Source: Cognatiluteimonas profundi (GTDB lineage: Bacteria > Pseudomonadota > Gammaproteobacteria > Xanthomonadales > Xanthomonadaceae). Taken from it: DNA of 64,000 bases. The notes beneath the pieces were generated by a model, which saw only the letters and a list, made by a program, of their open reading frames with translations, had not been told where the DNA came from and did not search any database. Positions 4,922 to 24,127 of this stretch are shown piece by piece. The stretch spans positions 611,601 to 675,600 of the forward strand of contig NZ_VKHQ01000003.1 of assembly GCF_009792795.1 (NCBI RefSeq), in the 5' to 3' direction. Both the position numbers and the translations under genes were made by a program. Positions within the stretch are counted from its first letter, which is position 1. Each line of letters starts with the position of its first letter.

Positions 4922-4978
4922 GCCGGGTGCGCAACGCCGGACGGGCGGTTTCGATGATCGCGTCGGCGCCTTCGGCAG

Positions 4979-8032: not shown

Positions 8033-8263
8033 GTTGGCATCCTCGTTGACCAAAAGGCACCGGCAGTCGATTCGTTCGAATACCTGGATCACGCATCACG
8101 ACGCGCGAACATGCCGGTTGTGTGGGGACGTGGTCCCGAAGCGACGGACCGCGCCTGCTTGTTTCAACGGCAGCGTCCACTCAACGCAACCGTGAACGGA
8201 AGCCTAAGCGTGCATCCCGCGTTCATGATGTGAAATTCGGGTCCAGATGCCCGACGCCGGGAG

Positions 8264-9070
8264 TCAACGTCCGCCGCAATGGCAGTTCGTCCGGCCGCCA
8301 GGCTCCGGCCCGTCCACCCGATTCTCGATTTTCACGTCCAGGAGGCCCGCGTACTCCTTCAGCGCGCGGCCGCTGCGCCATAACGCGCTGCGGGTCGGGA
8401 GCCAGCGCTGCTCCCAATCCATCGGCGCGAATTCAGGCTCCGGCACCGAGACGGGAACCACCTCCACGCCTGCATCGCGGAACAACAGGCTCGCCCGCGG
8501 CATATGCAGCGAGGAGGTCACCAGCAGGACCCGATGCACGCCATGCTGCCGGGCGAGCTGGGCAGTGAAGACGGCGTTGTCGCGCGTATTCCTGCTGTGC
8601 TGCTCCAGCAGCAGGGCCGATGCGGGGATCCCCAGCCTGCCGATGGCCTGCGCCATCAGGTCGGCCTCCGTATGGCCTGGCCTGCCGCGACCGCCGGACA
8701 GGATGATGATTGGCGCGCGCCCCCCCAGCCAGGCGCGGGCCCCTGCCGCGAGTCGGCTGTGGACGAGGTCGTCCGGACCGACGTCCGGGCGCGCGGTCCA
8801 CTCATACGAGCCGCCCCCCAGCACGACGATGGCATCCGCGCGCGGGAGCGTGGCTTCGGCCACGACGGGATGCCGTCGCTCGAGTGACTGGCGCAACCAA
8901 TCCGAGAATGCCGGCACCGACCAGAGCAGGGACCAGCCCAGCGCCATCGCGCCAAAGGCCACGGCCAGCTTGCGCTGGCGCAGCAGCAGGACCACGAGGG
9001 CCAGCGCGAGCAGTACCGCCGACAAGGCAAGCGGATAGGTGAGCGTGACAAGCAGTTTGTGCAGGTTCAT
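8264..9070 (-). CDS. ElyC/SanA/YdcF family (DUF218) membrane protein
   Basis: 268 residues. Two N-terminal membrane helices (about 8-50) precede a periplasmic DUF218 domain. Its conserved motifs are all present: ADAIVVLGGG, ILSGGRGRPGHTEADLM, EQHSRNTRDNA and VTSSLHMPRA. In E. coli, ElyC affects peptidoglycan and enterobacterial common antigen assembly at the lipid-carrier stage; the biochemical activity of the family is not settled. Its place inside a polysaccharide locus, just upstream of the Wza-like gene, suggests a role with undecaprenyl-linked intermediates (inference). 231 bp separate it from the Wza-like start. Confidence 0.85.
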   Translation of the reverse strand: MNLHKLLVTLTYPLALSAVLLALALVVLLLRQRKLAVAFGAMALGWSLLWSVPAFSDWLRQSLERRHPVVAEATLPRADAIVVLGGGSYEWTARPDVGPDDLVHSRLAAGARAWLGGRAPIIILSGGRGRPGHTEADLMAQAIGRLGIPASALLLEQHSRNTRDNAVFTAQLARQHGVHRVLLVTSSLHMPRASLLFRDAGVEVVPVSVPEPEFAPMDWEQRWLPTRSALWRSGRALKEYAGLLDVKIENRVDGPEPGGRTNCHCGGR

Positions 9071-9083
9071 GGCGACAACGCGG

Positions 9084-10289
9084 TCAGGACGGCGCGCGCT
9101 GGTCGCAGTAGTCGACCGGCGCGGACGGCGGCCTGCCCGCAGCCGACCCCACGCTGCGATCGAGCAGCAATTCGTCGTACACGGCGATGGTCCTGGCGAT
9201 CACCGATCGTTCGTCGAATTCCGCCAGTGCCTTCTCGCGTGCGCAATCGCCCAGCCTCGCCAGCAACGCGCGATCGTCGTCCAGTTGCCTGAGCGCATCG
9301 GCAAGCGAGTGCGCGCTGCGCGGCTCGACGTGCAGGCCGTCCACGCCGTGCGTGCCCACGACTTCACGGCAGCCGGCCATGTTGGTTGTCACCAGCGCCA
9401 AGCCGCAGGCCGCGCCTTCGATCAGGCTTTTCGGCACGCCCTCGCGGTAGTAACTGGGGAGCGCCATGACGTCGACCGAACGCAGCAATGCAGGCATGTC
9501 GTCGACATGACCAAGCCAGGTGACGCACCCTTCCCTGACCCAGGCCTCGACCTGCTCGTGGCCGACCGAACGCGGATTGCCGGGATCGGGCGTTCCGGCG
9601 ATCCGGAAATCGATGCTCCTGCCCTCCTGTTTCAGCAGGCGTGCCGCCTCGACGTATTCGCCGATACCTTTTTCCCACAACAGGCGCGCGGCGAGCACGA
9701 CGCGCAGCGGCGGGCGCCCGGCCGGTCGCTCGACCGGGGTGAAGCGACTGATGTTGACGCCGGAACTGCGGATGACGCGGATCTGCTCCAGCGGGACCAT
9801 GCGCGAGCTGACGAACGCTTCCGCGTCGTCGGGATTCTGCAGGATCAGTCGCGATCTCCTGCCGCCAAGCGTGCCGCGCATCAGCAGCTTGACGACCGGC
9901 CGCAGGGCCCGCGCGAGCGCACGGTCGCTGGTGAAGACGTAACCCATGCCCGCCACGGCATTGATGACGACGGGAGTTCGCGCCATGCGCGCTGCCATCG
10001 CGCCATACACCGCGCACTTGACCGTGAAGTTGTGCAGCACATCGGGGCGCTCGGCCTTCAATACCCGCGCCAGCCGATGGACAGTCAGCAGCTCACGCAT
10101 CGGATTCAGGCTCGCGCGATCCATGTCAAGCGTGATCCAGCGCAATCCATGGCCGGCGAATCGCCCGCCGAACTCCCCCGGCGGCGACAGCATCACCACT
10201 TCGTGTCCGTGCGCCATCAGCTCCAGTGCCGTCGACAACCGGAAGTTGTAGAGGTACCAGTCGGTGTTGGCGTAGAGAACGAACTTCAT
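9084..10289 (-). CDS. GT4-family glycosyltransferase
   Basis: 401 residues from ATG 10289 (MKFVLYANTDWYLYNF); the frame continues upstream to 10337 but without glycosyltransferase character. GT-B fold: the N-terminal acceptor half carries HGHEVVMLSPPGEFGGRF. The C-terminal nucleotide-sugar half has LLWEKGIGEYVEAARLL and the EX7E region EGVPKSLIEGAACG. It is the only clear glycosyltransferase in the locus, so it would add one sugar to the lipid-linked intermediate begun by the WecA-like enzyme. Remaining sugars must come from enzymes elsewhere or the repeat unit is very short. Donor and acceptor are unknown. Confidence 0.88.
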   Translation of the reverse strand: MKFVLYANTDWYLYNFRLSTALELMAHGHEVVMLSPPGEFGGRFAGHGLRWITLDMDRASLNPMRELLTVHRLARVLKAERPDVLHNFTVKCAVYGAMAARMARTPVVINAVAGMGYVFTSDRALARALRPVVKLLMRGTLGGRRSRLILQNPDDAEAFVSSRMVPLEQIRVIRSSGVNISRFTPVERPAGRPPLRVVLAARLLWEKGIGEYVEAARLLKQEGRSIDFRIAGTPDPGNPRSVGHEQVEAWVREGCVTWLGHVDDMPALLRSVDVMALPSYYREGVPKSLIEGAACGLALVTTNMAGCREVVGTHGVDGLHVEPRSAHSLADALRQLDDDRALLARLGDCAREKALAEFDERSVIARTIAVYDELLLDRSVGSAAGRPPSAPVDYCDQRAPS

Positions 10290-10296
10290 TGTCGGG

Positions 10297-11451
10297 TCAG
10301 CCTCGCCTGTGCGGGCGCTTGTGCGGGTCGACGACAAAACGTTCGTCCTCGGCGGCCGCCAGTCCCGACAGGAACATCGACGGCAGGATCAGGAACAGCA
10401 GGAAGCACGAGGCGTAGCGAATGCCGCTGCCTGGGTTGTAGATGCCGAACGGCACGTAGGAAACGAGCATCACCGCGACCGCCGGCAACCAGCCCAGCAC
10501 CAGGATCTTGCGCACGATGCCGCGCGGCGACCTGCGCAGCGCCACGTTGAGCGAGTACAGCAATACGAGGACCACCGTCAGGCCCGACAGCAGGAACGGC
10601 AGCATCACCGGGCGAGCCATGACCTCGCCGGGTGTCGGGCCCACCAGCGCGAGCGGCAGCGTCCACCACAGGCTCTTGAAGAATCCCGCGGTGGTGTCGA
10701 TGTTGATCCACGTCCGGGTCGTGTCCGACGCAATGGTGAAGAAGGTCTTCGCCTTGGGAAGCACGTCGTTGGCGATGTAGTCATCGACGGTTGGCCACAC
10801 GGCCAACAGCACGATCGTCGCGATCGCCGCGAACGCCAATGCCTGGACACCCGCGCTCAATGGCGTCCGCGGTCCCCACGCATAAAGCAGGAACATCAGC
10901 AGGAACAAGCCTGCACCCATGCCGAACGGCGCGCGGATGAACGTCATCCCGGCCACGCACACCAGCGCCAGCAACAACCGATGGAACCCCCTCTTCAGGA
11001 GGTAACCGACCACTGCGCCCATGAAGAAGCCGAGCAGGCCGATGAACAGCGATTCGCGACCGATGACCGATGCCCACACACCGAAATTCGGCAGCAACAG
11101 GATGGCCAGCAGGGGCCATCGGTAGCGGTCGTGCACCTTCGCCTGGGTGATCAGGTAACACACGCCACTGGCCGCGAACAGCGAGTACACGAGGTGCGCC
11201 AGCAGGTCCACGTGGACGATTCCCATCAACGTGGTGGCGATGAGGGTGATGAACCGGGTGCGGGCATCGCCGGTCTCGTCGTACGCGCCGGTCAGGTAGG
11301 AGTTGGCGTCGCCGAGTTGGCTGAAGTGGCTGTAGACGAAAACGGAAAACAGCGTCCAGCAGATGAAGATCGCGTAGGTACTGGCCAGCGTCAGCCGACG
11401 GGGCTGTTCGACCTCCCGCTCTTCAATGATGTCGATGGGCTCCAGGCGCAT
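10297..11451 (-). CDS. Polytopic inner-membrane protein of the polysaccharide locus (possible Wzy-like role)
   Basis: 384 residues with about ten hydrophobic segments. No clear O-antigen ligase motif was found, so naming it a polymerase is only positional inference: the locus has Wzx, Wzc and Wza analogues but no other Wzy candidate. ATG 11451 with AAGGCGAC is preferred. A GTG at 11529 that overlaps the flippase stop (GTGA) has a good GAGAGGA, but the 26 codons it adds (several TTT, TCA, TAT, CAA) do not match the GC-rich third-base use of real genes here. An RGIVRKILVLG loop and an acidic, charged C-terminus are visible. Confidence 0.75.
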   Translation of the reverse strand: MRLEPIDIIEEREVEQPRRLTLASTYAIFICWTLFSVFVYSHFSQLGDANSYLTGAYDETGDARTRFITLIATTLMGIVHVDLLAHLVYSLFAASGVCYLITQAKVHDRYRWPLLAILLLPNFGVWASVIGRESLFIGLLGFFMGAVVGYLLKRGFHRLLLALVCVAGMTFIRAPFGMGAGLFLLMFLLYAWGPRTPLSAGVQALAFAAIATIVLLAVWPTVDDYIANDVLPKAKTFFTIASDTTRTWINIDTTAGFFKSLWWTLPLALVGPTPGEVMARPVMLPFLLSGLTVVLVLLYSLNVALRRSPRGIVRKILVLGWLPAVAVMLVSYVPFGIYNPGSGIRYASCFLLFLILPSMFLSGLAAAEDERFVVDPHKRPHRRG

Positions 11452-11525
11452 GTCGCCTTGATACGGCCCGTTGCGTGACAGAGCCGTAAATGAATGCGAA
11501 AAATCCGCCGGGTTCTCGGGTCCGT

Positions 11526-12908
11526 TCACACAGCGTTTCCTCTCGCGGCTTTCTCGTTGCGACGCCTGTGGAAGCGCCGGACGCCCAGCATCGTGCCCAG
11601 CAGCAGGACGGCCTCGCCGGCAACGGTTGCCCACGCCGCACCACCGCCGCTGTAGCGGGGAATCAGCAGGACGTTCAGCACGATTGCGACGACGGTTGCC
11701 ACGCCCATCGCATACACGCGATAGCGCATGTGGTCTTCGGTCAGCAACGCCGAGCCCATGGCAGTCGACAGGAAGCGGATCGGCGGACACAGCGCCAGGA
11801 TGTACAGGATGTCGATGACGCCGCGATAGCGTTCGCCGAAGACAATGGGCACGATCCAGGGGGAGACCACCACCAGCGCAACGCTCACCGCGATGCCGAG
11901 CAGGAACATCGCCACGTTGCCCTGGCGGTACACGGCCCAGAACTTCGGCACGTCATGCGCCGCCCAGCGGTGCAGCTTCGACATCAGGTACTTCTGGTAG
12001 ATGGTCGCCGGAATCAGGTAGATCGCCGTCATGATCGCCAGCGCGATGCTGTACATGCCGGCCTGCGCATCGCTGTGCAGGTACTTGAGCAGGATCGTGC
12101 TGATCTGGAAGAAGACCGGATACAGGATCGCGAACACGCCATAGGCCCAGGCCTGGGACCAGAGCTCGCCGATTCGCGGATGCGGTCCGGCCGGCACGGC
12201 CGCGGCTTCGCGCGGCCCGTGCCCATGCAGGTCCATCTCCCCCCGCATCATCCGGCGGATGTGCGGAAACGCCGAGCCGAAGACGAGCAACGCGATCAGG
12301 CTGTAGCTGACTGCAACGAACTTGCCAGTCAGCTGCGGCACCAGCAGCAACGACAGCGCCACCACCAGCCGGCTCGCCGGGATGGCCATCTGCCACAGCG
12401 CCATTTCCCCGTAACGCTCCTCCAGGCGCAACTTGTTGCTCATCAGGTCGATGGCCAGGAAGCTCAGCACGACGGGCGACAGCACCACCAGTGCGAAGCG
12501 GGTTCCGTTGGCGGGCGCGACCAGCACCGCCCAAGCGATGATGATGGCGAATGCGACCAGGGTCGTGCCATGGGTGAAGCGCAGCGACGGGGTCAGCCAG
12601 CGATTGGCGCCCCATCCCTCAACGCCGTAGGCCTTGAGGCGGAACTGCGTGAGGCCGAAGCCTGCCAGCGGCGCGACCATCGTCACAGTCGCCAGCGACG
12701 AGGCGAACAAGCCGTACGCCGACGGCCCCAGCTCGCGCGCAAGCAGTGTCTGCGTCGCGAAAACCATGCCCGCGCCAAGGGCCGTCGCCACGCCGAGCAT
12801 GGAAACGGTCGTCAGTGCCCGGCGCCAGCCAGGGATCATCCTGAAGCCGGTGCGGCGGGTGATCGAGGCCGAGGCAGCGACCAGCCCAGCCGCGAAATCT
12901 GATTTCAT
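11526..12908 (-). CDS. Wzx-like polysaccharide flippase (MOP superfamily)
   Basis: 460 residues with 12-14 predicted membrane helices and the RELGPSAYGLFA segment typical of polysaccharide transporters of the MOP/Wzx family. ATG 12908 is chosen because AGGA sits 9 bases upstream; the frame runs further to 12995 without support. It would flip the undecaprenyl-diphosphate-linked repeat unit to the periplasm. It is followed by the polytopic protein at 10297-11451. The stretch 12909-13074 upstream holds a GC-rich inverted repeat that may end the preceding beta-helix transcript. Confidence 0.88.
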   Translation of the reverse strand: MKSDFAAGLVAASASITRRTGFRMIPGWRRALTTVSMLGVATALGAGMVFATQTLLARELGPSAYGLFASSLATVTMVAPLAGFGLTQFRLKAYGVEGWGANRWLTPSLRFTHGTTLVAFAIIIAWAVLVAPANGTRFALVVLSPVVLSFLAIDLMSNKLRLEERYGEMALWQMAIPASRLVVALSLLLVPQLTGKFVAVSYSLIALLVFGSAFPHIRRMMRGEMDLHGHGPREAAAVPAGPHPRIGELWSQAWAYGVFAILYPVFFQISTILLKYLHSDAQAGMYSIALAIMTAIYLIPATIYQKYLMSKLHRWAAHDVPKFWAVYRQGNVAMFLLGIAVSVALVVVSPWIVPIVFGERYRGVIDILYILALCPPIRFLSTAMGSALLTEDHMRYRVYAMGVATVVAIVLNVLLIPRYSGGGAAWATVAGEAVLLLGTMLGVRRFHRRRNEKAARGNAV

Positions 12909-13026
12909 CAAGCCACTTCCTACGATAGCGGCCATGAATGTACAAGCGGCGAAGTGAAGAACCGCTCCACATTCAGTCGGGCTACCACCCCCCATGGCGC
13001 AATGGGCTGGCCCCGGAAACGATGAC

Positions 13027-13074: not shown

Positions 13075-14214
13075 TTACTTGTAGAAGTTGGATCCGATCG
13101 TCACGTTGGTCGCCGTGCTCCTGATCAGCATGTCACGCGAGACCTTGCTGTTATATCCGGTCAGGTAGAAATCGACGCGGTCCTTGTTGCCCAGGCGACA
13201 GTAATTGTTGAAGGAGACATTGTTCTTCATCGTCAGGTTGCTGCCGCTGTAGAACTGGACGCCCGTGGCCGAATTGTTCTGCACCAGGCTGTTCTGCACC
13301 GTCACCTGCGAGCATCCCAGCGTGACCACGCCACAGCTGCCATTGCTCTCGATCGTGCACCCATCAAGGTTGATGTTGGAGGCGCGCTTGTAGATGTTGA
13401 TGCCGTACTTGGCATTGTTGTTCAGGCGGCAATTCTGGATCAGGATGTTGTAGGCCGGATCGGTGTTGTCCGGCTCGATGTCGATCCCGCATTCCGGACT
13501 CGTACCCTTGGTGTAGGAAAATTCGCTGTCATGGACCTGGACGTCGTGGCACCAGGTGAGGCTGAGTCCCTGGCGGCGGTTCTGCGTCGAGACGACATTG
13601 GCGATCACCAGGTCGGAGGTGTTGCCGCCGGTGCAGATGCCGTCGCCGGCGCACTTGCCAACCCACAGGTCGCGGATGGTGACGCCGGTGCAGCCGATGA
13701 TCTGGATGCCATGGTTCCATTCCGACGTACTGGTGCTGACATAGGTGTGCGTGTCGCGATCGCCCATCAACTGACCACCGGCGATCTCCACCTGCGTGCG
13801 CTTGCTGGCAAACAGGATGTAGGCGCGGATGGCCGAGTTGGACTTGGCCTTGAGGATCGCATTGGGATCCATGTTGAGCAGCATGTAGCTGCGCAGGTTG
13901 ATCTTCCTGGTCGGATCGATCAGGTAGGTTCCGGCCGGGACGTTGACGGTGCCGCCTGCCGCCGGTAGCGCATTGATGGCCGCCTGGAACGCCGCCGTGT
14001 CATCGTGGATGCCGTCACCGACCGCGCCATAGGTCTTGACCGACAGGACCGTGGTTCCGCGGGTACGGGTTGGTGGGACATAAGTGGATGCGGCGGCGGG
14101 CAGGCTGATCCCGCCCAGCACGAGGGGAACGCTCAGCAGGACGGAATTGCGCAGGAACTGACGACGGGGCATGCCTGCATTGCAGATCCCAGACAGCACT
14201 TGTTGCTCTTTCAC
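13075..14214 (-). CDS. Tat-exported right-handed beta-helix protein (pectate-lyase-3-like), paralog 1
   Basis: 379 residues from GTG 14214, chosen for the strong GGGAGG five to six bases upstream; an inner ATG at 14172 starts directly at the twin-arginine motif. MPRRQFLRNS plus a hydrophobic stretch and AAAS form a Tat signal. YGAVGDGIHDDTAAFQAAI opens a pectate-lyase-3/GH28-like parallel beta-helix, with NVPAGTYLID shortly after. The family motif NRRQGLSL (about 212-219), then DSEFSYTKGTSPECGIDIEP, is shared with the three neighbouring paralogs. It would act in the periplasm or outside on a polysaccharide as lyase, hydrolase or epimerase; which one is not decidable. Confidence 0.82.
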   Translation of the reverse strand: MKEQQVLSGICNAGMPRRQFLRNSVLLSVPLVLGGISLPAAASTYVPPTRTRGTTVLSVKTYGAVGDGIHDDTAAFQAAINALPAAGGTVNVPAGTYLIDPTRKINLRSYMLLNMDPNAILKAKSNSAIRAYILFASKRTQVEIAGGQLMGDRDTHTYVSTSTSEWNHGIQIIGCTGVTIRDLWVGKCAGDGICTGGNTSDLVIANVVSTQNRRQGLSLTWCHDVQVHDSEFSYTKGTSPECGIDIEPDNTDPAYNILIQNCRLNNNAKYGINIYKRASNINLDGCTIESNGSCGVVTLGCSQVTVQNSLVQNNSATGVQFYSGSNLTMKNNVSFNNYCRLGNKDRVDFYLTGYNSKVSRDMLIRSTATNVTIGSNFYK

Positions 14215-14638
14215 GGAAACCTCCCTCATGGCGCACTTGGCGTGCAGCCGGACACCGGTGGATGACAGCGGAATCACGCGGTTTTCACACCGGCCGGACC
14301 GGCCCCTGTTCCCATGTCAAGGCGGTGTGAACGTGACGTGGCCGAATCTAGCGAACGTCGCGCGCTTGTCATGCACCAATTCGCCGAACTGTGCGCTGGC
14401 TCAACAGTTCACATCGTGGATCGCGCATTCATCTTGTGATTGCGGCCCCTGGCATCCATGCAGCGCCGTGCATGCACCACACTTTGCGCAGCGCCGCGAA
14501 AAGGCCCGAATCCGGGCGCGCTGCACCTGGCCTGCGGGAGCTGGCATCCAGCGTCGCCCCGGGTTGCATGCGGCCACAAAAAAAGGGGCGTTGCTGCCAA
14601 CGCCCCTCGTCATGGTCCCCGCCACGTTTACGCGGCGG
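14215..14638. other. 424-bp intergenic region between beta-helix paralogs 1 and 2
   Basis: Non-coding leader of paralog 1 and tail of paralog 2. It holds the paralog-2 terminator (14578-14606) and, nearer paralog 1, an 8-bp inverted repeat TTCACACC (14284-14291) / GGTGTGAA (14324-14331). The duplicated upstream element found in front of paralogs 2 and 3 was not seen here. No small gene could be supported. Confidence 0.6.
14578..14606 (-). terminator. Rho-independent terminator of beta-helix paralog 2
   Basis: On the minus strand GGGGCGTTG, loop GCAG and CAACGCCCC form a 9-bp stem followed by seven T. It lies about 30 bp beyond the stop of the gene ending at 14639. A textbook intrinsic terminator; it isolates paralog 2 from paralog 1. 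Confidence 0.9.
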
Positions 14639-15811
14639 CTACTTGTAGCTGTTCGTCTGGATGGCGATACCGCCGACCGTGCCCCGGATCAGGATGTCGC
14701 GTTCGATCTTCGACGCCCACCCCGTCAGGGTGAAGGGTGTACGGGTCTTGATGCCACTGCGGGTGTAGTTGCCGTAGGACACCCCACCGGTCACGTTGAC
14801 GCTCGACGATCCGTCGCGGATGAAGATGCCCGTCGCCGAGTTGTAGCGCACCGTGTTGCCGACGAAATGGATGCCGGAACAGTAGTTGGTGACAGCCCCG
14901 CAGCTTTCGTTCCGCTCGATGGTATTGCCCGTCAGCGTGACGTTGCTGACGCGCTTCCAGATGTTGATGCCGTACATGGCGTTGTACTTGAGGCTGCAAT
15001 TCTGGATCACGATGTCGTAGGCGGTGCTGGTGCCATCGGGCTCGATGTCGATGCCGCACTGCGGGCTGGTGCCCTTGGTGTAGCTGAACTCGGAGTTGTA
15101 GACCCGGATGCCGTTGCAACGGGTGAGGGACAGTCCCTGGCGGCGGTTCTGGGTGGACACGATGTTGGCGATGACGACGTCGCTCGCCCCGCCACCCAGG
15201 CACACACCGTCACCGGCGCACTTGGCCACGTACAGGTCACGCACGGTGATGTGGCTCCCGCCGTTGATGCCAATGCCGTGGTTCCACTCGGAGGTGCTGC
15301 CACTGACGTAGTGGTGCGTATCGCGATCACCGATCAACTTGCCGCCCGCGATCTCGACGTTGGTGCGGCCGGTGACGTTCAGGATGTAGGAGCGCGTCGC
15401 TGAATTGGTCTTCGCCTTGAGCGTGGCGTTTGGATCCATGTTGAGCAACATGTAGCTGCGCAGGGTGATCCGCTTCGTCGGGTCGATCAGGTAGGTGCCT
15501 GAGGGGATGTAGACGGTGCCGCCGGTGGACGGGAGCGAATTGATCGCTGCCTGGATGGCCGCGGTATCGTCGCTGGTGCCGTTACCGAGGGCGCCGTAGT
15601 TCTTGACGTTGCGGTAGGCGGTACCGCGGGGGCGGGGGGCCGGGGCATAGGCGGCAGCGGCCGAGAAGCTCACGCCTCCCAGGACCAGCGGCACTGTCAT
15701 GACCATGGAGTTGCGGAGGAATTCCCTGCGGGGCATGTCGGAGCCGCGCGAGCTGGGCACGATTTCGTTTTGATTGACCAATTTTTTGAATCCTGGGCTG
15801 GCGCCGGACAT
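14639..15811 (-). CDS. Tat-exported right-handed beta-helix protein, paralog 2
   Basis: About 390 residues. The start is uncertain: ATG 15811 is given, TTG 15781 has AGGA nine bases upstream, and ATG 15736 begins at the Tat motif MPRREFLRNS. The twin arginine and VPLVLGGVSF core are nearly the same as in paralog 1. YGALGNGTSDDTAAIQAAI starts the beta-helix. The signature STQNRRQGLSL and then NSEFSYTKGTSPQCGIDIEP are retained; IERNESCGAV and repeated Asn-rich coils follow. This is the closest relative of paralog 1. It has its own upstream region (repeat copy A) and its own terminator, so it is a separate transcription unit. Confidence 0.82.
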   Translation of the reverse strand: MSGASPGFKKLVNQNEIVPSSRGSDMPRREFLRNSMVMTVPLVLGGVSFSAAAAYAPAPRPRGTAYRNVKNYGALGNGTSDDTAAIQAAINSLPSTGGTVYIPSGTYLIDPTKRITLRSYMLLNMDPNATLKAKTNSATRSYILNVTGRTNVEIAGGKLIGDRDTHHYVSGSTSEWNHGIGINGGSHITVRDLYVAKCAGDGVCLGGGASDVVIANIVSTQNRRQGLSLTRCNGIRVYNSEFSYTKGTSPQCGIDIEPDGTSTAYDIVIQNCSLKYNAMYGINIWKRVSNVTLTGNTIERNESCGAVTNYCSGIHFVGNTVRYNSATGIFIRDGSSSVNVTGGVSYGNYTRSGIKTRTPFTLTGWASKIERDILIRGTVGGIAIQTNSYK

Positions 15812-15855
15812 GAACAACCGACGTCTTCTCATGGGATTGGGCCTGGGCGGCCCAG

Positions 15856-16028
15856 CGAACCACGACACGAACGGAAAGACGTAAAGGAATGTCTAATCCA
15901 CGTGAAAACGTGTGCGGCAGAGCCTACTGGGCAGTTCGGGCCGTCGTGCAAAGAAAATGTAAAAAGCGCGCGAAGGTCACGGTCGTGACAGCCGCTTCTT
16001 CAGTTTCAATGCAGGTTGCTGACTACGC
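15856..16028. repeat. Duplicated upstream regulatory region, copy A
   Basis: Shares with 17426-17595, in the same order, CGAACCACGnCACGA, CCACGTGAAA, TGCAAAGAAAA followed by a GTnAAAnGCGCG block, GCCGCTTCTTCAG and TGACTACGC. Spacing differs by only a few to ten bases. Copy A includes a perfect small palindrome CACGT-GAAA-ACGTG (15899-15912). It sits directly upstream of paralog 2 on the minus strand, so it probably carries promoter and operator sites. Confidence 0.75.
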
Positions 16029-16065
16029 GGTTTGCACATTGGTGAATGCGCGTCCCGGACAACGG

Positions 16066-16090
16066 AAAGCCCCGGGGCGACCGGGGCTTT
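16066..16090 (-). terminator. Hairpin after beta-helix paralog 3
   Basis: AAAGCCCCGG, loop GGCGA and CCGGGGCTTT form a 10-bp perfect stem 28 bp beyond the stop of the gene at 16118-17233. The T-run is only three bases on the minus strand, followed by CCG, so efficiency is uncertain. Confidence 0.65.
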
Positions 16091-16117
16091 CGCGCTGAAA
16101 CAGGCGCGGGAACAGGG

Positions 16118-17233
16118 TTATTTGTAGAGGTTGGAACCGATGCTCAAGTGCTGCGTGTTGGACGGCTGCTGGATGTCACGGGAAATCGCAGACTTCCATC
16201 CGGTGTAGGAGAAGTCGGGGCTACGGTCGAGGGCGGCGCCCTTCGTGCGGTTGTTGTAGAAGGTGTTCCCCGAGATGTAGATGTAGTCACCGTAGTAGAG
16301 CGCGATGCCCGGGGCGTAGTTCTGCTGCACGACGTTGTTGGTGTAATGGATGTTGTTGGTGCCGGTCTTGCCGTTGACCACCATGCCGTTGCGGCCGTTG
16401 TATTCGATCAGGCACTTGGTCACGGTGACCTGGGACACATTGCTGACGCAATGGACACCGTCCTTGGCATTGTGGTGCAACCAGCAATTCTCGATGTGCA
16501 CGTTCTTGCACGTATAGGTGCCGAGCGGCTCGATGTCGATGCCGAACTCCGGCGCGGTGCCCTGCGTGTAGCTGAACTCCGAGTCGTAGACGGCGATGTT
16601 GCTGCACAGCGTCAGGGACAAGCCCTGGCGGCGGTTGTGGGTCGAGATGATGTTGACGAACATCACGTCGTCCGACCCGCCACCAACGCAGATCCCGTCG
16701 CCCGTGCACTCCGCGATCCGGATGTCGCGGATCGTCAAGCGGTCGCCGTTGGCGATCTGGATGCCATGGTTCCACTCATCCGTCGAACCGGATGCGTACT
16801 TGTGCGTCGCGCGGTCGCCAATGATCTGGCCGCCAGCGATCTCGACTTCCGAGATGTTGTTGATGTAGAGGACGTAGGCGCGCTTCACGGACGACGTCTT
16901 CGCCTTCAGCGTCGCACCATCGGCCATCTGCAACAGCATGTTGCTGCGCAGCCGGATGCCCATGGTGGTGACGGTATCGATCATGTAGGTGCCGGCCGGG
17001 ATCGCGACCGTGCCCCCAGTGGACGGCAGGCTGTTGATCGCGGCCTGGATGGCCTTGGTGTCGTCGGTGGATCCGTCACCCTTGGCGCCATAGTCCTTGA
17101 CGTTGCGAACGGTGGTCCCGCGCTTGCGGGACGTCGGGATGAAGCCGGAGCTGACGATTGCGGAGAAGGCCGGGGCCACGGCGATGGCGCAGGCAGCGGC
17201 GATTGCGGAGGTCAGGAACTTGCGACGATGCAT
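16118..17233 (-). CDS. Tat-exported right-handed beta-helix protein, paralog 3
   Basis: 371 residues from ATG 17233 (MHRRKFLTSA), with a GAGAG element about eleven bases upstream. The twin-arginine signal is followed by an alanine-rich core ending near AFSAIVSSG. YGAKGDGSTDDTKAIQAAI marks the beta-helix entry, and IPAGTYMIDT the first strand pair. The signature appears as STHNRRQGLSL and DSEFSYTQGTAPEFGIDIEP. Compared with paralogs 1 and 2 the residues after GIDIEP diverge (NVHIENCWLHHNAKDGVH), suggesting a different substrate subsite. It has its own upstream region (repeat copy B). Confidence 0.82.
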   Translation of the reverse strand: MHRRKFLTSAIAAACAIAVAPAFSAIVSSGFIPTSRKRGTTVRNVKDYGAKGDGSTDDTKAIQAAINSLPSTGGTVAIPAGTYMIDTVTTMGIRLRSNMLLQMADGATLKAKTSSVKRAYVLYINNISEVEIAGGQIIGDRATHKYASGSTDEWNHGIQIANGDRLTIRDIRIAECTGDGICVGGGSDDVMFVNIISTHNRRQGLSLTLCSNIAVYDSEFSYTQGTAPEFGIDIEPLGTYTCKNVHIENCWLHHNAKDGVHCVSNVSQVTVTKCLIEYNGRNGMVVNGKTGTNNIHYTNNVVQQNYAPGIALYYGDYIYISGNTFYNNRTKGAALDRSPDFSYTGWKSAISRDIQQPSNTQHLSIGSNLYK

Positions 17234-17624
17234 GGAATTGGGTTCTCTCGGGAGTTGGACAGACAGCGTGTCCATCAGGGGGATGAGTTGCGGGAAGATT
17301 CATGGCAAGGCATCCAAGCCCCGCGCGCCTTGGGCACGAGTTCTGTGTTGATCAGCAAAGTCACCGCACCCCAGGTTGTGCCGACTGCTGCCGGCGCCTC
17401 GACGTATTCAGTCCAAACGGACCATCGAACCACGCCACGATCGAGCTGCGGATCGACGTTTATCGATGTCGAGCCCACGTGAAAGCGCGGACCGTGAGGC
17501 TACGGTCCACTGTCGAGTCCAATGCAAAGAAAACGTGAAAGCGCGACGGCGGTACGGCCGCTTCTTCAGCGTTCATCCATGTAACTGACTACGCCTTTCG
17601 GACGACGCCAGCCCCCTGAGGTCG
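17234..17624. other. 391-bp intergenic region with promoter-like repeat copy B
   Basis: Upstream region of paralog 3 and tail of paralog 4. It carries repeat copy B at 17426-17595, within which ACGTGAAAGCGCG occurs twice exactly (17477-17489 and 17533-17545). No believable gene and no clear terminator for paralog 4 were seen. Confidence 0.6.
17426..17595. repeat. Duplicated upstream regulatory region, copy B
   Basis: Second copy of the element at 15856-16028, upstream of paralog 3. Conserved blocks are CGAACCACGCCACGA, CCCACGTGAAAGCGCG, ATGCAAAGAAAACGTG, GGCCGCTTCTTCAG and TGACTACGC. The 13-bp word ACGTGAAAGCGCG appears twice, 56 bp apart. The duplication probably arose together with the duplication of the beta-helix genes. 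Confidence 0.75.
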
Positions 17625-18722
17625 TCAGCCCCCGCCGACGTTGTCTGAAAACGTGACGCCGTGGGCGTCATCCGCGACGTGCACCTGCCTTCTCCACGCA
17701 GGCGTAGCGGTATCGCGTGCAGCACCCGCATTCAGCGTTTCCATCCCGTTCGCGTCGAACTGGTTCCCGCGGATCTCGACCCCGACCGCGTTCCCGCGCA
17801 GCGAAATCCCCGGCTGTCGATTGTCATGAATGCGGTTGCCTGCAATCACCGAGTCCCTCGCCCCCACGACAACGATGCCTGGCGCCTGGTTTCCCGCGAT
17901 GGTGCAATCGGCAATCGTGACGCCCCAGACCCGCCTGTACACCTGGATGCCGGGGCCGCGGTTGTTCCGCACCAGGCAGCGCTCGATGCGGATGTCGCCT
18001 GCGTCGGAGGGCGAATCAGGCTCGATGTCGATCCCCGCCTGCGGTGCCGTGCCGCCTGTGTCGCTGAATTCGGAGTCGTAGACGCGCACGTTCTGCGATC
18101 GGCCGATGGTGAGCCCTTGTCGCCGGTTTCCCACGCACACCACGCGCGCCACGACCACGTCCCGGCTCGTCGGCACGGGACGGCCAGGCCGCGACGCATC
18201 CGCACCGATGGAGATCCCGTCTCCCCAGCAACGGGAAATCCGGATGTCGCGAATGGTCACCGCCGATGAACCACGGGACGTGAGGCCATGCCCCCACTCG
18301 CCGCCGAGCCCCAGGTGCCGATCGCGATCTCCGACGATCGCGCCACCGGAAACCTCGACGTCGTGCGCATCCTGGATCAGGACGACGTACGCGCGCTCGA
18401 GCGCATTGCTCTTCGCCACCAGTGTCGCGCCCGGTGCCAGCTGCAGGTGCATCCGGCTGCGCAGGCGCAGGCTGCGCGCCGGGTCGACCAGGTAGTTGCC
18501 CGGCCCGACGCGCACGGTCCCGCCATCGGACGGCAGGGCGTCGACGGCGCGCTGCAACGCCAGCGTATCGTCGTGGACGCCGTCGCCACGCACGCCAAAA
18601 TCCCGAACATCCAGTTGCGCCGCTCCCCTCGCCCGCATCGGCACGAGAGTGGCCGCCGCTCCGACGCGGGCCGATGCCAGTGGCGAAAGCAAAGCGGCAT
18701 ACAGCAGCTGCCTGCGCTGCAT
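17625..18722 (-). CDS. Exported right-handed beta-helix protein, paralog 4 (most divergent)
   Basis: 365 residues from ATG 18722 (MQRRQLLYAALLSPLASA), a Tat-like signal with twin Arg. A GTG at 18761 overlaps the stop of the upstream ligase-like gene (GTGA) and could be the coupled start. FGVRGDGVHDDTLALQRAV begins the beta-helix. The signature is present as GNRRQGLTI and DSEFSDTGGTAPQAGIDIEP, so the presumed active-site residues are kept although the rest is divergent and richer in Arg and Asp. Unlike paralogs 1-3 it lies in the same operon as the two asparagine-synthetase-like genes, which links the two families functionally. Confidence 0.82.
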   Translation of the reverse strand: MQRRQLLYAALLSPLASARVGAAATLVPMRARGAAQLDVRDFGVRGDGVHDDTLALQRAVDALPSDGGTVRVGPGNYLVDPARSLRLRSRMHLQLAPGATLVAKSNALERAYVVLIQDAHDVEVSGGAIVGDRDRHLGLGGEWGHGLTSRGSSAVTIRDIRISRCWGDGISIGADASRPGRPVPTSRDVVVARVVCVGNRRQGLTIGRSQNVRVYDSEFSDTGGTAPQAGIDIEPDSPSDAGDIRIERCLVRNNRGPGIQVYRRVWGVTIADCTIAGNQAPGIVVVGARDSVIAGNRIHDNRQPGISLRGNAVGVEIRGNQFDANGMETLNAGAARDTATPAWRRQVHVADDAHGVTFSDNVGGG

Positions 18723-18757: not shown

Positions 18758-20302
18758 TCACGGACGTGGCTGGTCGTCGGCCGGTTGCCCGGCGATCCAG
18801 GGCAGGACCACGGCAAGCAGGTAGAACTTCGACGCGTGGTACTTGTTGTCCAGCCGGCACCGGTTGCGGTCCAGCCAGTCGACGGCACCGGGCAACACGT
18901 CGCGGGCCTCCTGCGCGAACCCACGGACGCGGTCGAATCGCTGCCTGGCCAGGCCGCAAAGGTCGAAGCGGAAGCTGCCCTTCCTGGCGACATACGGCAA
19001 CACGCCGAACCGTTCGGCGATGTGCCTGCGCACGAGGACCTTGTTGACCTTCGCCACCGGATCGATCATCTGCTCACGCGGAACGTTGTTGTAGACCCAC
19101 TCGCGCAGGTCGTGGTCGCACAGCGGATAGGCTGCATGGATCCCCATCGCATCGGTCGTGTAGAGACCCTTGGCGAAACCGGCGGCAGCGCCCGAGATGG
19201 ACATGCTGATGACGCGCAATTCGTCGTGGCTGGTCGCGGAGCAAATCTCTGCCTTGAACGGATTCAGGCGCTCGCGTGACCTGGATGCGATCTTCATGCC
19301 GAACAACGCATCAACCTCCGCATCGGTGAAGCGCGAGCCCGGGAAGATCCGCTCGATGGGGTCCATCTGCACGGTGCCGAGCAGATAGCACAGCTTGAAG
19401 TTGTGCCCGATCAAGGGCAGCTCCGAGATCGCCGGAGGCAGCCGCAGGCCCCGCGCCAGCCAGTACAGGAATTTCTTGCGCGCCTGCGCTGGCGCGCCGA
19501 AGTAGCTGTCGGAACCCATGCCGTCGATGATGCCGTCGCCGCCGTTGGCCGCGACTTCGGTGGCGAGGTCCGCGTAGGACAGCAACGCGAAATCGGCCGT
19601 CAGGAGCGGCATCCTGTGCGCGATCGCCACATAGCGGTCATAGGCCCGACCCGGCTCGCACACGAGGGCCTCGTGCCGAAGCCCGAGTCTCCTCGCCACG
19701 AATTCGGCCGATGCGAGTTCGTTCTCCTCGGGGCCGCCCAGGTATGTGATGCAGGTGGTGTCCGGCCTGGTTTCCGCGATGGCGATCGCCATCGTCGTCG
19801 AATCCTTGCCTCCGCTTTGCAGCAACCAGGGCGTGCGGAGCTCCGCACAGGATCTCGTCACCGCCTCGCACAGCAACCGGTGGTAGGTGGCCACGAGGTC
19901 CTCGTCGATCTTGCCCGCCTCGCTGCTCTTCCCCGCATCGCGGAACCGGTAGTGGAACTCAGGATCCGCCTGCATGTCGTGGTGGGGGAAAAATCCGAAC
20001 GTCGCGAGCTTGACCTCTTCGTAGATCGAGTGCGGTGGATAGACGAAGGCATTGCGCAGCAGGTCGGCGACCGAAACAGGATCGATCTTCGTGCGCTGCG
20101 ATCGCGCATCGATGCTGGCGAAATCCGGTTTGCCGTAATAAGGGGACATGGCGATCTGCATGTTGCCGGTCGGCATGGAATCCCCGACCGGGGTCGTCGG
20201 CCCTATGCGAGCCAGCGGCGCCGGCTGGAGGGTGGCGCGTGCCGAAGTCGCGCCAGTGATGCCGGCATTCAGTGGCAGCGTACCGGATGTTTCCCTCGTC
20301 AT
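18758..20302 (-). CDS. Asparagine-synthetase-like ATP-dependent ligase without glutaminase domain, paralog a
   Basis: 514 residues from ATG 20302, which overlaps the upstream stop (ATGA) and has GGAG six bases ahead. The C-terminal two thirds match the synthetase half of AsnB: PP-loop SGGKDST at 163-169 for AMP-forming activation, CITYLGGPEENE and DGIIDGMGSDSYFG. The N-terminal glutaminase half is missing: no Cys2 nucleophile and only about 110 residues before the synthetase domain, including LLRNAFVYPPHSIYEEV like the AsnB interdomain segment. It could adenylate a carboxylate (for example a uronic acid) and couple it to ammonia or an amine. Such a role in polysaccharide amidation is inference from location. 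Confidence 0.8.
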   Translation of the reverse strand: MTRETSGTLPLNAGITGATSARATLQPAPLARIGPTTPVGDSMPTGNMQIAMSPYYGKPDFASIDARSQRTKIDPVSVADLLRNAFVYPPHSIYEEVKLATFGFFPHHDMQADPEFHYRFRDAGKSSEAGKIDEDLVATYHRLLCEAVTRSCAELRTPWLLQSGGKDSTTMAIAIAETRPDTTCITYLGGPEENELASAEFVARRLGLRHEALVCEPGRAYDRYVAIAHRMPLLTADFALLSYADLATEVAANGGDGIIDGMGSDSYFGAPAQARKKFLYWLARGLRLPPAISELPLIGHNFKLCYLLGTVQMDPIERIFPGSRFTDAEVDALFGMKIASRSRERLNPFKAEICSATSHDELRVISMSISGAAAGFAKGLYTTDAMGIHAAYPLCDHDLREWVYNNVPREQMIDPVAKVNKVLVRRHIAERFGVLPYVARKGSFRFDLCGLARQRFDRVRGFAQEARDVLPGAVDWLDRNRCRLDNKYHASKFYLLAVVLPWIAGQPADDQPRP

Positions 20303-21696
20303 GCAGTCTCCGGCTTGTGCGTGTGCTCGACGATCCACGGAAGAACGATCGCCAACAGGTAGAACTTCGACGCGTGGTACTTGTTGTCGAGCAGGCTGCG
20401 GTTGCGCTCGAGCCATCGCGCCGCACCGGGCAGGACGTCGCTGGCCTGGCGTGCAAAGGCATGGACCTGGTCGAAGCGCGCGCTGGCCAGGCCACACAGG
20501 CTGAAGCGGAAACTGCCCTTGGCGGCCACGTAGGGCAACTCCCCGAAGCGCGTGGAAATATGCTCGCGCACCAGCACCTTGCTGAGCCTGGTGGCGGGAT
20601 CCACCTTCTTGTCCAGGGGAACCTCGTCATACACCCAATCGCGAAACTGGCGGTCGCAAAAAGGAAAGGCAATCTGCATCGACAGCGCGTTGGTCGTGTA
20701 GATGCCCTTGCCGAAGCCGCCGGTGGCGGCAGCTATGGACAAGGAGATGTCGCGCCACTCATCCAGGCTCGATGCCGACGCCAGCTCCGGCTCGAACAGG
20801 CCCAGCCGCGCCCTGGATTCCTGCGCGACCTGCCGCCCGAACAGCGCGTCCACTTCGTCGTCGGTGAAGCGCGACCCCGGGAAGACGCGCTCGACCGCGC
20901 GCATCTGCAGCGTGGACAAGGCATAGCAGAGCTTGAAATTCCGCCTGACCAGCGGCAATTCGAAAATGGAGGGCGGCAGGCGGATTCCGCGCGCAAGCCA
21001 GAAGAGCATGCGTTGCTGCAGCTTCACCGGTGTCCCGAAATAGTTGTCCGATCCCAGGCCGTCGATCACGCCGTCGCCGCCGTTGCGCGCGATCTCCGTG
21101 GCCAGGTCCACGTAGGACAGCAGCGCGAAGTCCGCGCTGAGCAGTGGCATGCGGTCGATAAGGTCGAGGTAGCGGTCGTAGGCACGGCCGGGATCGCATA
21201 CCAGCTGCTCGTGGCGCAGGCCCAGGGTCGCCGCGACGTGGGTCGCCGAAGCGACCTCGTTCTCCTCGGTTCCTCCCAGATAGGTGATGCAGGTCGTATC
21301 GGGTCGGGATTCGGCCAGCGCGATCGCCAGCGTGGTGGAATCCTTGCCTCCGCTCTGCAGCAGCCATGGGGATTGCATGCCTTCGCATGCGCGCGCAGTC
21401 GCCTCGCACAACAGCCGATGGTAGTTGCCGACCCAGTCCTGCTGCCCACCGTCGACGGCCTTGCTCTGTCCCTGGTGGCGAAAATCGAAATGAAATTCCG
21501 GGGCGCTGTCCATCTCCTGCTGGGGAGTGAAACCGAGCGGCAGCTGCTTGACTCCTTCGAGCGTGGAGTGCGGGGCGAAGACGATCGAGTTGCGCAGGAT
21601 GTCGGCAACGGAAACCAGGTCGATGTCGCCGGCAAGCTTGCCGGCAAGCCGGGAAAAATCCGGCTTGCCGTGGTAAGGCGACAAGTTGACGTGCAT
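20299..21696 (-). CDS. Asparagine-synthetase-like ATP-dependent ligase without glutaminase domain, paralog b
   Basis: 465 residues from ATG 21696 with AGGGGA about seven bases upstream. It is clearly homologous to its downstream neighbour over the whole length: SPYHGKPDF near the start, LLRN-like region, PP-loop SGGKDST at 115-121, CITYLGGTEENE, DGVIDGLGSDNYFG and DNKYHASKFYLLA at the end. Like paralog a it lacks the N-terminal glutaminase domain. The tandem arrangement with ATGA overlap suggests recent duplication and co-production, perhaps as a heterodimer or for two different acceptors. Substrate is unknown. Confidence 0.8.
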   Translation of the reverse strand: MHVNLSPYHGKPDFSRLAGKLAGDIDLVSVADILRNSIVFAPHSTLEGVKQLPLGFTPQQEMDSAPEFHFDFRHQGQSKAVDGGQQDWVGNYHRLLCEATARACEGMQSPWLLQSGGKDSTTLAIALAESRPDTTCITYLGGTEENEVASATHVAATLGLRHEQLVCDPGRAYDRYLDLIDRMPLLSADFALLSYVDLATEIARNGGDGVIDGLGSDNYFGTPVKLQQRMLFWLARGIRLPPSIFELPLVRRNFKLCYALSTLQMRAVERVFPGSRFTDDEVDALFGRQVAQESRARLGLFEPELASASSLDEWRDISLSIAAATGGFGKGIYTTNALSMQIAFPFCDRQFRDWVYDEVPLDKKVDPATRLSKVLVREHISTRFGELPYVAAKGSFRFSLCGLASARFDQVHAFARQASDVLPGAARWLERNRSLLDNKYHASKFYLLAIVLPWIVEHTHKPETA

Positions 21697-21739
21697 GCGT
21701 CTTCCCCTGCGGCGAATCGCCTGCGGGCAATGCGCCCGG

Positions 21740-23995
21740 TCAGGCCGCATTGCTCTTGGCGGGGAGGTACTCGTAATAGCTGTACGCATAGCGGCCCGCG
21801 CTGCGCTTCTGGACGCCATTGAAGATCGCGCCCTTGACCTCGACCCCGTTCTGCTCGAGTCGCTGCTTGGCCAGGGCGATCTCGCGCTGCTGGTTGAGCC
21901 CGAAGCGGACGACCATCAGGCAGGTTCCCGCCTGGTGGCCGATCACCGCGGCGTCGGTCACTGCCAGCACCGGCGGCGTATCGATCACCACCACGTCGTA
22001 CAACGGGGCGAGCTGGTCGAGCAACTCATGGAAATTCGGATGCATCAGCAATTCGGACGGGTTCGGGGGAACCTCGCCGCGCGCGATGAAGGACAGGTTC
22101 TCCGCACCCGCGACACGCCGCACCGCGGCCGCCAGCGGGATCTGCCCGGAGATCAATTCCGACAGGCCATTTTCCGAACGCGCGCCCATGGCATGGTGCA
22201 GCGTGCCGCGTCGCATGTCGGCGTCGATCAGCAGCACCCGCTGTCCGGCCTGGGCCATGGTGACGGCCAGGTTGGCGCAGACGAAGGTCTTGCCGACCCC
22301 GGGGCTCGGCGCGGTGATCATCAACACGTTGTTCTTGGTCTTGAACCGCGCGAAGTGCAGGCTGGTGCGCAGGCTGCGCAACGCCTCCATCGCCAGGTCC
22401 GTGGGTGCCTTCAGCGCGAGCAGGCGCTGGTGCGTCCCACCGCCGATGCGTCCCTGCCCGACCGAGAGCTCACGACCCTTGTCGCTGTAGGGGATCGATG
22501 CATAGACCGGCAGGCCGAGCAGCTCGATGTCCACCGGATCCTCGACGCCGCGACGCAGCATCTGCTGCAACAGCACGAAGGCGACCATCAACAGCGCGCC
22601 GAGCACCGTGGCGCCGGCAACCACCGGGATGGGCTCGGGCCATGCCGGGTTCTCGAGGTCCACGGCGGCCGGATCGATGATGCGCACATTGCCGATCGCG
22701 CTGGCGCGGGCGATGTCCAGCTGCTGCGCCTGGTCGAGCAGGTTCGCGTACGTCTGGTTGGTCACCTCGACGTCGCGGCTGCGCCAGAACAGGCCCTGCT
22801 GCGTGTCAGGCAGTCGTTCGATCTCGCTCTGGATGGCGGCCTTCGCGCGCTGGAACTGCGCGATCTGCCCCGCCACCGCCTTGTACGCCGGGTGTTGCGG
22901 GGTGAAGCGGCTCGCGAGGTCCGATTGCTGCACGCGCAACTGGTTGATGTTGGTTTCCAGCGCGACACTCTGGTCCAGCAGCGCCTTGTTCTGGACGCCC
23001 ACGTCCAGCGTCCGCGTCTGCGACTGGAATGCAGTCAGGGCCGATTGGGCCTTCGACAGTTCGTCGCGCACCTTCGGCAACTGCGCCTTGACGAATTGCA
23101 GGCGCTTGGCGGCCTCGGCGGAATTGCGCGCGATGTTCTGGCTGACGTATGCGGTGCTGACCTGCTCGAGGATTTTTTTGGCGAGCAATGGATCGGCATT
23201 GTCGTAGCGCAGCTCGATGATGCCCGAATCGCGGCCCTGCTCGACTGCACTGATGTCCCTCTTGAGCTTGTCGAGGATGACCAGGGAATTCAGGTGGGTC
23301 ACGTCGAAATAGGTGCCAGGATTGGCCTGCAGCACGTCGACCTTGGAAGTGACACCACCACCGCTGGCGACTTCCCCAACGCGGCCTTCGAGCAGGCGCG
23401 TGCCATTGTTGTCCAGCAAGGTGTAACTGCCCTGCTCACCGGCAACCAGCCGCAGGGGGATATCGGTCATGTCGTCGGGAACATCCAGCGTCCCGAATTG
23501 CACGCGCTCGCCTCCCCATCCGTAGCTGCTGAGCCCGAACCACGGCGATGCAACCTGCCCGACCTGGTCCGGCGTATAGCGACGGGCAATGAAGCTGCCG
23601 ATGAGGGGGAAGCGCCTTGGCTGGACTTGGATATCCAGGTTGAGCGCATTGACCGCATCGATCAGCACTTGCCTGGAAGTCAGCAGCTGGATCTCGGTCG
23701 ACGCCGGTGCATCCTGCGCGGTGGTCGTCTGGCCCGATTGATTGTTGGACAGGCCCGGCACCGTCGGCGTCTTCTTTTCGACCTGCACCACCGCATTGGC
23801 CTCGTACTGCGGAGTCGCGAGTACCACGTACAGCACGGCCACGAGCACGAACAGCGCCGTGCCCATGAGGATCAGTCGCTTGTGGTCGCCCAGTGTCGCC
23901 AGCAGCGTGCGCAGGTCGATCTCGGCGTCGCGCATTGAAGGCGCGGCGTACGAGGGAGAAGGCGATGCCAACTTCGGGGTCAGGTGGGTGGCCAT
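21740..23995 (-). CDS. Wzc-type chain-length determinant / BY-kinase
   Basis: 751 residues. First membrane helix at about 41-60, long periplasmic Wzz domain with coiled coil (about 230-400), second helix before about 490. The cytoplasmic tyrosine kinase carries Walker A SPGVGKT (564-570), Walker A' VLLIDAD (about 587-593) and Walker B VVVIDTPP (about 668-675). The C-terminal tyrosine cluster YAYSYYEY is the usual autophosphorylation site. It would control polymer length and open the Wza-like exit pore, with the phosphatase at 26790-27224 resetting it. ATG 23995 begins MATHLTPK; no strong Shine-Dalgarno was seen. Confidence 0.93.
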   Translation of the reverse strand: MATHLTPKLASPSPSYAAPSMRDAEIDLRTLLATLGDHKRLILMGTALFVLVAVLYVVLATPQYEANAVVQVEKKTPTVPGLSNNQSGQTTTAQDAPASTEIQLLTSRQVLIDAVNALNLDIQVQPRRFPLIGSFIARRYTPDQVGQVASPWFGLSSYGWGGERVQFGTLDVPDDMTDIPLRLVAGEQGSYTLLDNNGTRLLEGRVGEVASGGGVTSKVDVLQANPGTYFDVTHLNSLVILDKLKRDISAVEQGRDSGIIELRYDNADPLLAKKILEQVSTAYVSQNIARNSAEAAKRLQFVKAQLPKVRDELSKAQSALTAFQSQTRTLDVGVQNKALLDQSVALETNINQLRVQQSDLASRFTPQHPAYKAVAGQIAQFQRAKAAIQSEIERLPDTQQGLFWRSRDVEVTNQTYANLLDQAQQLDIARASAIGNVRIIDPAAVDLENPAWPEPIPVVAGATVLGALLMVAFVLLQQMLRRGVEDPVDIELLGLPVYASIPYSDKGRELSVGQGRIGGGTHQRLLALKAPTDLAMEALRSLRTSLHFARFKTKNNVLMITAPSPGVGKTFVCANLAVTMAQAGQRVLLIDADMRRGTLHHAMGARSENGLSELISGQIPLAAAVRRVAGAENLSFIARGEVPPNPSELLMHPNFHELLDQLAPLYDVVVIDTPPVLAVTDAAVIGHQAGTCLMVVRFGLNQQREIALAKQRLEQNGVEVKGAIFNGVQKRSAGRYAYSYYEYLPAKSNAA

Positions 23996-24127
23996 GTTTC
24001 GATTACCGGGAGAAGAAGTGGTTGAGGGGCGTTTGCAGCCGTGTGGCGACCCTGAATGCAGTCGCCGACCCAAGGCAGTGGACGCATAAGGGTGTCGACG
24101 GGGCGTCAATCCCGATCGTCGCGGATG

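Follow-up and report, generated by a model that had tools for sequence, protein, structure and literature searches.

Beta-helix proteins with a shared NRRQGL/GIDIEP motif in an exopolysaccharide locus of Cognatiluteimonas profundi and their pairing with an asparagine-synthetase-like gene

The described systems closest to the proteins studied here are beta-helix enzymes acting on polysaccharides and the tail proteins of phages. The catalytic residues of AlgE are Tyr149, Asp152, His154 and Asp178 (PMC7385640). RbmB of Vibrio cholerae is a lyase that cleaves Vibrio polysaccharide (VPS), the exopolysaccharide (EPS) of its own species (PMC11637428), chondroitinase B has a layout of Ca2+ plus Lys/Arg (PMC6488583), and Glu245 and Asp247 are candidate catalytic residues in GH82 (PMC4919138). 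Among phage proteins, the tail fibre gp22 of phi-crAss001 is trimeric, and the passages on gp22 in its description report no enzyme activity (PMC10172136). The NRRQG/GIDIEP family of beta-helix proteins considered below is little studied: our literature searches turned up neither an activity nor a substrate for any member, and no paper on the locus described here.

Four beta-helix genes and the surrounding locus

The window, that is the whole stretch of 64,000 nucleotides analysed, comes from a genome of 2.71 Mb (19 contigs, 99.98% complete). Four intact open reading frames lie on the minus strand, where the earlier note had placed four genes by coordinates: W1 (13075..14229, start codon approximate), W2 (14639..15811), W3 (16118..17275) and W4 (17625..18722), with the Tat-like signals GMPRRQFLRNS, MPRREFLRNS, MHRRKFLTSA and MQRRQLLYAAL, respectively. 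The twin-arginine motif (RRxFL/RRxLL) stands ahead of a hydrophobic stretch in 4/4 proteins, the entry motif GDGxxDDT is present in W1, W3 and W4 (GNGTSDDT in W2), and NRRQGL with (D/N)SEFSxTxGTxPxxGIDIEP is found in all of them; in W1, the NRRQGL codons are at ~13564-13581 and the GIDIEP codons at ~13471-13488 of the minus strand. Together with the Pfam matches PF12708 (N-terminal) and PF13229, these data confirm the tandem arrangement of Tat-signal beta-helix genes that the earlier note had described. The free divergence that it saw outside the signal and entry motif does not hold, as W2, W3 and W4 are 61%, 48% and 40% identical to W1 over their full length. Distal coils vary (GINIYKR, GINIWKR, GVHCVSN, GIQVYRR) while the core-groove residues are constant, a pattern that would fit one chemistry with altered subsites.

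In transcription order, the locus begins with a WecA-type phosphoglycosyl transferase (PF00953) fused in one ORF to a WecB-type UDP-GlcNAc 2-epimerase (PF02350; 24128..26563, minus strand, as for all coordinates that follow). Then come a Wzc-type BY-kinase and chain-length co-polymerase (21740..24109), two asparagine-synthetase-like proteins with approximate starts, AsnL1 (20299..21819) and AsnL2 (18758..20440), the genes W4, W3, W2 and W1, a Wzx-type flippase (11526..12995), a probable Wzy-type polymerase (10297..11790), a GT4 glycosyltransferase (9084..10337), a DUF218 protein (8264..9070), a Wza-type outer-membrane export protein (6935..8092) and RadA. Judged by sequence, Wzx and Wzy are weakly assigned: the Wzx matches are weak but consistent, and the hydrophobic Wzy candidate, without a Pfam match, is assigned by its position, which is conserved in relatives. 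The initiating transferase, Wzx, Wzy, Wzc and Wza are thus found together, and the placement that had been proposed from Wzx, Wza and a BY-kinase can be extended to a complete Wzx/Wzy-type EPS locus that encloses W1-W4 and recurs in relatives. Indeed, the beta-helix genes of Luteimonas and Lysobacter are flanked by these genes in a near-identical order, and Frateuria and Dyella share part of the arrangement; some relatives have extras (GT2, an EpsG-family protein, pyruvyl transferase or nitroreductase). Two nucleotide-sugar dehydrogenases are encoded in the genome, which makes uronic acids possible.

Some side observations concern this locus. In several relatives, too, the fused WecA-WecB query aligned with a single stretch of >2 kb. 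A contig filed as the cyanobacterium Tolypothrix campylonemoides (L009) carries the EPS locus of Lysobacteraceae (its RadA is 82% identical) and is probably a contaminant. On a contig of an Eremiobacteraeota MAG (L018), the AsnL, beta-helix, Wzc and Wzx genes are closest to Dyella, by horizontal transfer or because the contig was misbinned.

Pairing of AsnL with the beta-helix genes

The main new result, absent from the earlier note, is the pairing of the beta-helix gene with AsnL. Among 149 genomes of the family, searched at E values of at most 1e-20 for the beta-helix and 1e-60 for AsnL, the two were present in exactly the same 25 genomes, which belong to 11 of 54 genera. The naive probability of identical sets is ~10^-28, shared ancestry making the real value larger. 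The genus of the window is mixed, with two carriers and four non-carriers among those listed, and thus the beta-helix and AsnL genes come and go together. Moreover, AsnL lies upstream of a beta-helix gene, on the same strand and with 38-134 bases between match ends, in 24/24 genomes with both on one contig; in the 25th carrier, both are near contig starts. In an order-wide sample, the pairing recurs in one Rhodanobacteraceae-type genome (G532; AsnL 4805-6169, beta-helix 6229-7323), whereas a family further away, where the beta-helix matches are weaker, has no AsnL. At the thresholds used, AsnL was not found in more distant relatives in the order and class.

The SGGKDST ATP-pyrophosphatase loop (PP-loop) is retained in AsnL, which in Pfam matches Asn_synthase only and has no recognisable glutaminase domain. 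Both tandem genes, AsnL1 and AsnL2, are without this domain, and AsnL2, directly upstream of W4, retains the PP-loop. Searching the PDB by sequence with AsnL found no relative. Its model, of medium confidence (pLDDT 69), resembles TsnB9, carbapenam synthetase, beta-lactam synthetase and asparagine synthetase. With the beta-lactam and carbapenam synthetases and asparagine synthetase B it shares the PP-loop amide-synthetase domain (Z 17-19.6), whereas the glutaminase domain is not recognisable in AsnL. AsnL should make an amide bond. The strict pairing points to an unrecognised two-part step in slime making, and its tightness could mean that the beta-helix protein acts only on lipid-linked intermediates or as a structural assembly factor.

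In a maximum-likelihood tree that left out W1-W3, the Lysobacteraceae copies split into a clade with W4, which is AsnL-adjacent (clade A), and a second clade (clade B), with moderate backbone supports (87/95 and 89/93). A FastTree with all four window genes placed W1-W3 in the second clade, and W1, W2 and W4 each had a sister in a genome of the same genus (G108). The trees therefore give 1+3 in place of four equal paralogues, and the four-fold expansion of the earlier note is reduced to three clade-B copies, W4 being the single AsnL-linked member of the other clade. In some cases, clade-B copies lie away from the EPS locus. A fifth beta-helix copy lies on contig 15 of the genome and a third AsnL copy elsewhere (G000:C13:469136-470518); no clear polysaccharide genes were found around either.

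Conserved residues, predicted fold and candidate chemistries

W1-W4 carry, on a right-handed beta-helix and in order, GDR..H, (E/Q)WG (EWN in place of EWG in W1-W3), GDG, NRRQG and GxDxEP. Relatives were searched with two patterns, of which one contained GIDIE and is biased towards motif carriers and the other, DDTxAxQxA, is free of this bias; motif-bearing relatives occur in Acidobacteriota, Bacillota, Bacteroidota, Actinomycetota and Alphaproteobacteria, and the family is rare in the sampled gammaproteobacteria outside Lysobacterales. A 32-member profile matches the phi-crAss001 tail fibre gp22 (PDB sequence 7qoj_J) at E 2.8e-49, and 62% of W3 aligns with gp19 of Corynebacterium phage phi674 at 37% identity. 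Both phage proteins carry GEWG, WGDG, NRRQG and GTxPxxG(I/L)D(I/L)EP (the last as GTSPKAGLDIEP in gp22) but are virion appendages. Matches in PHROGs are confined to tail proteins, a few other virion proteins and unknown families, and phage tail proteins are the sole relatives found with a known role, the neighbourhoods of distant bacterial relatives having been sampled lightly. The motif is thus not a hallmark of the four-gene set but the signature of a family that spans many phyla and includes a tail fibre of an abundant gut-phage group.

Conservation was counted in a set of 44 members with pairwise identities below 60% (numbered as in the 385-residue model sequence of W1), and the recurrence of the motif among them indicates that it is not due to chance. 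D197, R220, P246, G249 and E253 are conserved in 44/44, N218, D251, H162 and R159 in 43/44, R219 in 42/44 and E171 in 39/44, with Gln in the rest; no Lys is conserved across the set. In the AlphaFold2 model of W1 (mean pLDDT 80, >90 in most of the helix, pTM 0.82), NRRQG forms the turn ahead of the PB1 strand 223-225 and I250-D251-I252 the next PB1 strand. Because side chains alternate along a strand, the aliphatics at 250 and 252 should point inward and D251 and E253 outward into the groove, as read from strand register and not from measured coordinates. This places D251 and E253 on a groove strand of a confident model, in an active-site-like position.

The earlier note had read the Asn-Arg-Arg, Asp, Glu and Asp-x-Glu residues as an active site, and part of this reading survives, namely the invariant charged residues that the model puts on the groove side. 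The Glu of SEFS (E237), like (D/N)S, is kept locally but not family-wide; E237 is not among the conserved residues of the 44 members and was rejected as catalytic. The Asn of NRR (N218) is probably not catalytic either: N218, N273, N297 and N320 each stand first in an NxxxG unit, coil after coil, a repeat also seen in AlgE4, and N218 is therefore more likely structural. R219/R220 and D251/E253, in turn, are specific. The conserved residues allow a hypothesis of the active site to be tested in a large family whose annotation is so far only right-handed beta-helix.

The best solved folds for the W1 model are an alginate epimerase/lyase (8ja4, Z 39.5), AlgE6 (5lw3, 38.5) and AlgE4 (2pyg, 38.3), at 1.5-1.6 A over ~294 residues, followed by phage tail proteins, RbmB (Z 33) and polygalacturonases; the adhesin PfbA is also among the matches. 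The set of polymer-modifying enzymes that had been suggested is therefore consistent with the fold, which is closest to polysaccharide epimerases, lyases and hydrolases, and with the EPS locus, catalysis itself being inferred.

With even confidence for and against, we propose that W1-W4 are periplasmic enzymes that cleave the polysaccharide of their own locus by one shared active site, W4 doing so within a module with AsnL. After Tat export, they would act on the polymer made by the same Wzx/Wzy/Wza locus, holding the chain along the PB1 groove, and the shared site would comprise D197, R219/R220, D251 and E253, assisted by H162 and E171. Cleavage might set chain length or clear stalled polymer, as RbmB and phage depolymerases act on their polymers; put more broadly, the proteins are likely to cut or tailor the polymer of their locus in the periplasm. 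AsnL, as a cytoplasmic ATP-dependent amide synthetase, would probably amidate a carboxylated sugar or add an amide-linked group to the repeat unit, and the adjacent W4 would act on, or be gated by, this decoration, W1-W3 being second-clade duplicates that keep this core groove but differ in their distal coils. The candidate chemistries may be those of a hydrolase using the D-x-E pair (compare GH82), a Ca-assisted lyase or an epimerase. For GH82 iota-carrageenase, the family has D-x-E on a PB1 strand against E-x-D, and the sequence match is confined to the N-terminal part. If the proposal is true, these would be new polysaccharide-cutting enzymes, and an AsnL-plus-beta-helix step of exopolysaccharide assembly would have gone unrecognised in Lysobacteraceae and Rhodanobacteraceae. 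A bolder form, to which we lean only tentatively and with chances clearly below even, is that AsnL and the clade-A beta-helix make an obligate two-enzyme module, in which the amide decoration made by AsnL is recognised or cut by a D197/Arg-Arg/D-x-E site that our comparisons matched to no known beta-helix enzyme, and that phages, for example crAss-like ones, use the same catalytic fold to cut capsules.

The fold itself could suggest C5-epimerases of the AlgE/AlgG type, which would invert uronic acid residues in the polymer with no cutting. AlgE4, AlgE6 and the alginate epimerase/lyase share the N-terminal GxGDGxxDD and the NxxxG coil repeat with W1-W4, hhalign of the family to AlgE4 gives a probability of 99, several paralogues occur as in AlgE1-7, and the two nucleotide-sugar dehydrogenases would allow uronic acids. 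However, Y149, D152, H154 and D178 of AlgE4 align with D197, C200, G202 and ~T226 (in a profile alignment, by sequence register and not by superposed coordinates, with an AlgE4 sequence that agrees with the AlgE4 stretches obtained elsewhere in the analysis). None of the four catalytic residues is matched, so AlgE-type chemistry is not indicated, and the invariant Arg and Asp-x-Glu of the family lie one to two coils further on, apparently putting the active site in different coils. We thus regard an epimerase as unlikely, and a mannuronan C5-epimerase of the AlgE type was rejected.

Beta-elimination as in PL6 and RbmB, in which Arg would serve as base or acid and the D-x-E pair would hold Ca2+, is a sub-case of the cleavage that we propose and competes with the hydrolase within it; we find it doubtful. 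Arg-Arg one coil ahead of D-x-E resembles the Ca2+ and Lys/Arg layout of chondroitinase B (PMC6488583), both elements being present in the family although the coil register may differ, and RbmB combines a high fold match with lyase activity on the EPS of its own species (PMC11637428). Against this, Lys is not conserved, the RbmB sequence alignment covers the N-terminal part only and leaves the NRRQG/GIDIEP region unaligned, and uronic acid in the EPS is an assumption. There is also a slim chance that the proteins keep a lyase-like fold as non-catalytic polymer-binding guides or chaperones of EPS assembly. Beta-helix adhesins and tail-fibre domains can bind with no cutting (PfbA), and the AsnL pairing suggests an assembly role, but charged residues so strictly kept across phyla and phages are a more usual sign of catalysis than of attachment to different polymers.

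Export signals and gene arrangement

The RR motif is present in 68/78 copies of a mainly Lysobacteraceae group and in few outside it, and Tat export appears from this distribution to be a habit of the lineage, not a trait of the family. A precedent is E. coli WcaM, which we take to have a beta-helix fold and to lie in the colanic acid locus. WcaM has been assigned to the biosynthesis of colanic acid and is predicted to be exported by Tat (PMC7549933), and is thus a Tat-type protein from a Wzx-dependent EPS locus, as W1-W4 are; in our literature searches, no paper combined WcaM, colanic acid and the beta-helix. Given this precedent and that most members outside Lysobacteraceae are without the motif, Tat export needs no special explanation. 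The cofactor loading before export that the earlier note had considered is rejected as unneeded.

Copy number varies, and the largest array seen has six consecutive beta-helix genes on one contig (G020:C32, L121). In the window, a promoter-like site ahead of W1 is no better than chance level. A strong terminator-like hairpin (14583..14608, minus strand; 11 pairs, then a T-run) lies between W2 and W1 and, with the roughly 300-400 bases that separate neighbouring beta-helix genes, suggests that these are not one simple operon. Moreover, a 50-base repeat (15988-16037 and 17554-17603, 74% identical) occurs in the intergenic stretches upstream of W2 and of W3, and might be a duplicated regulatory or RNA element.
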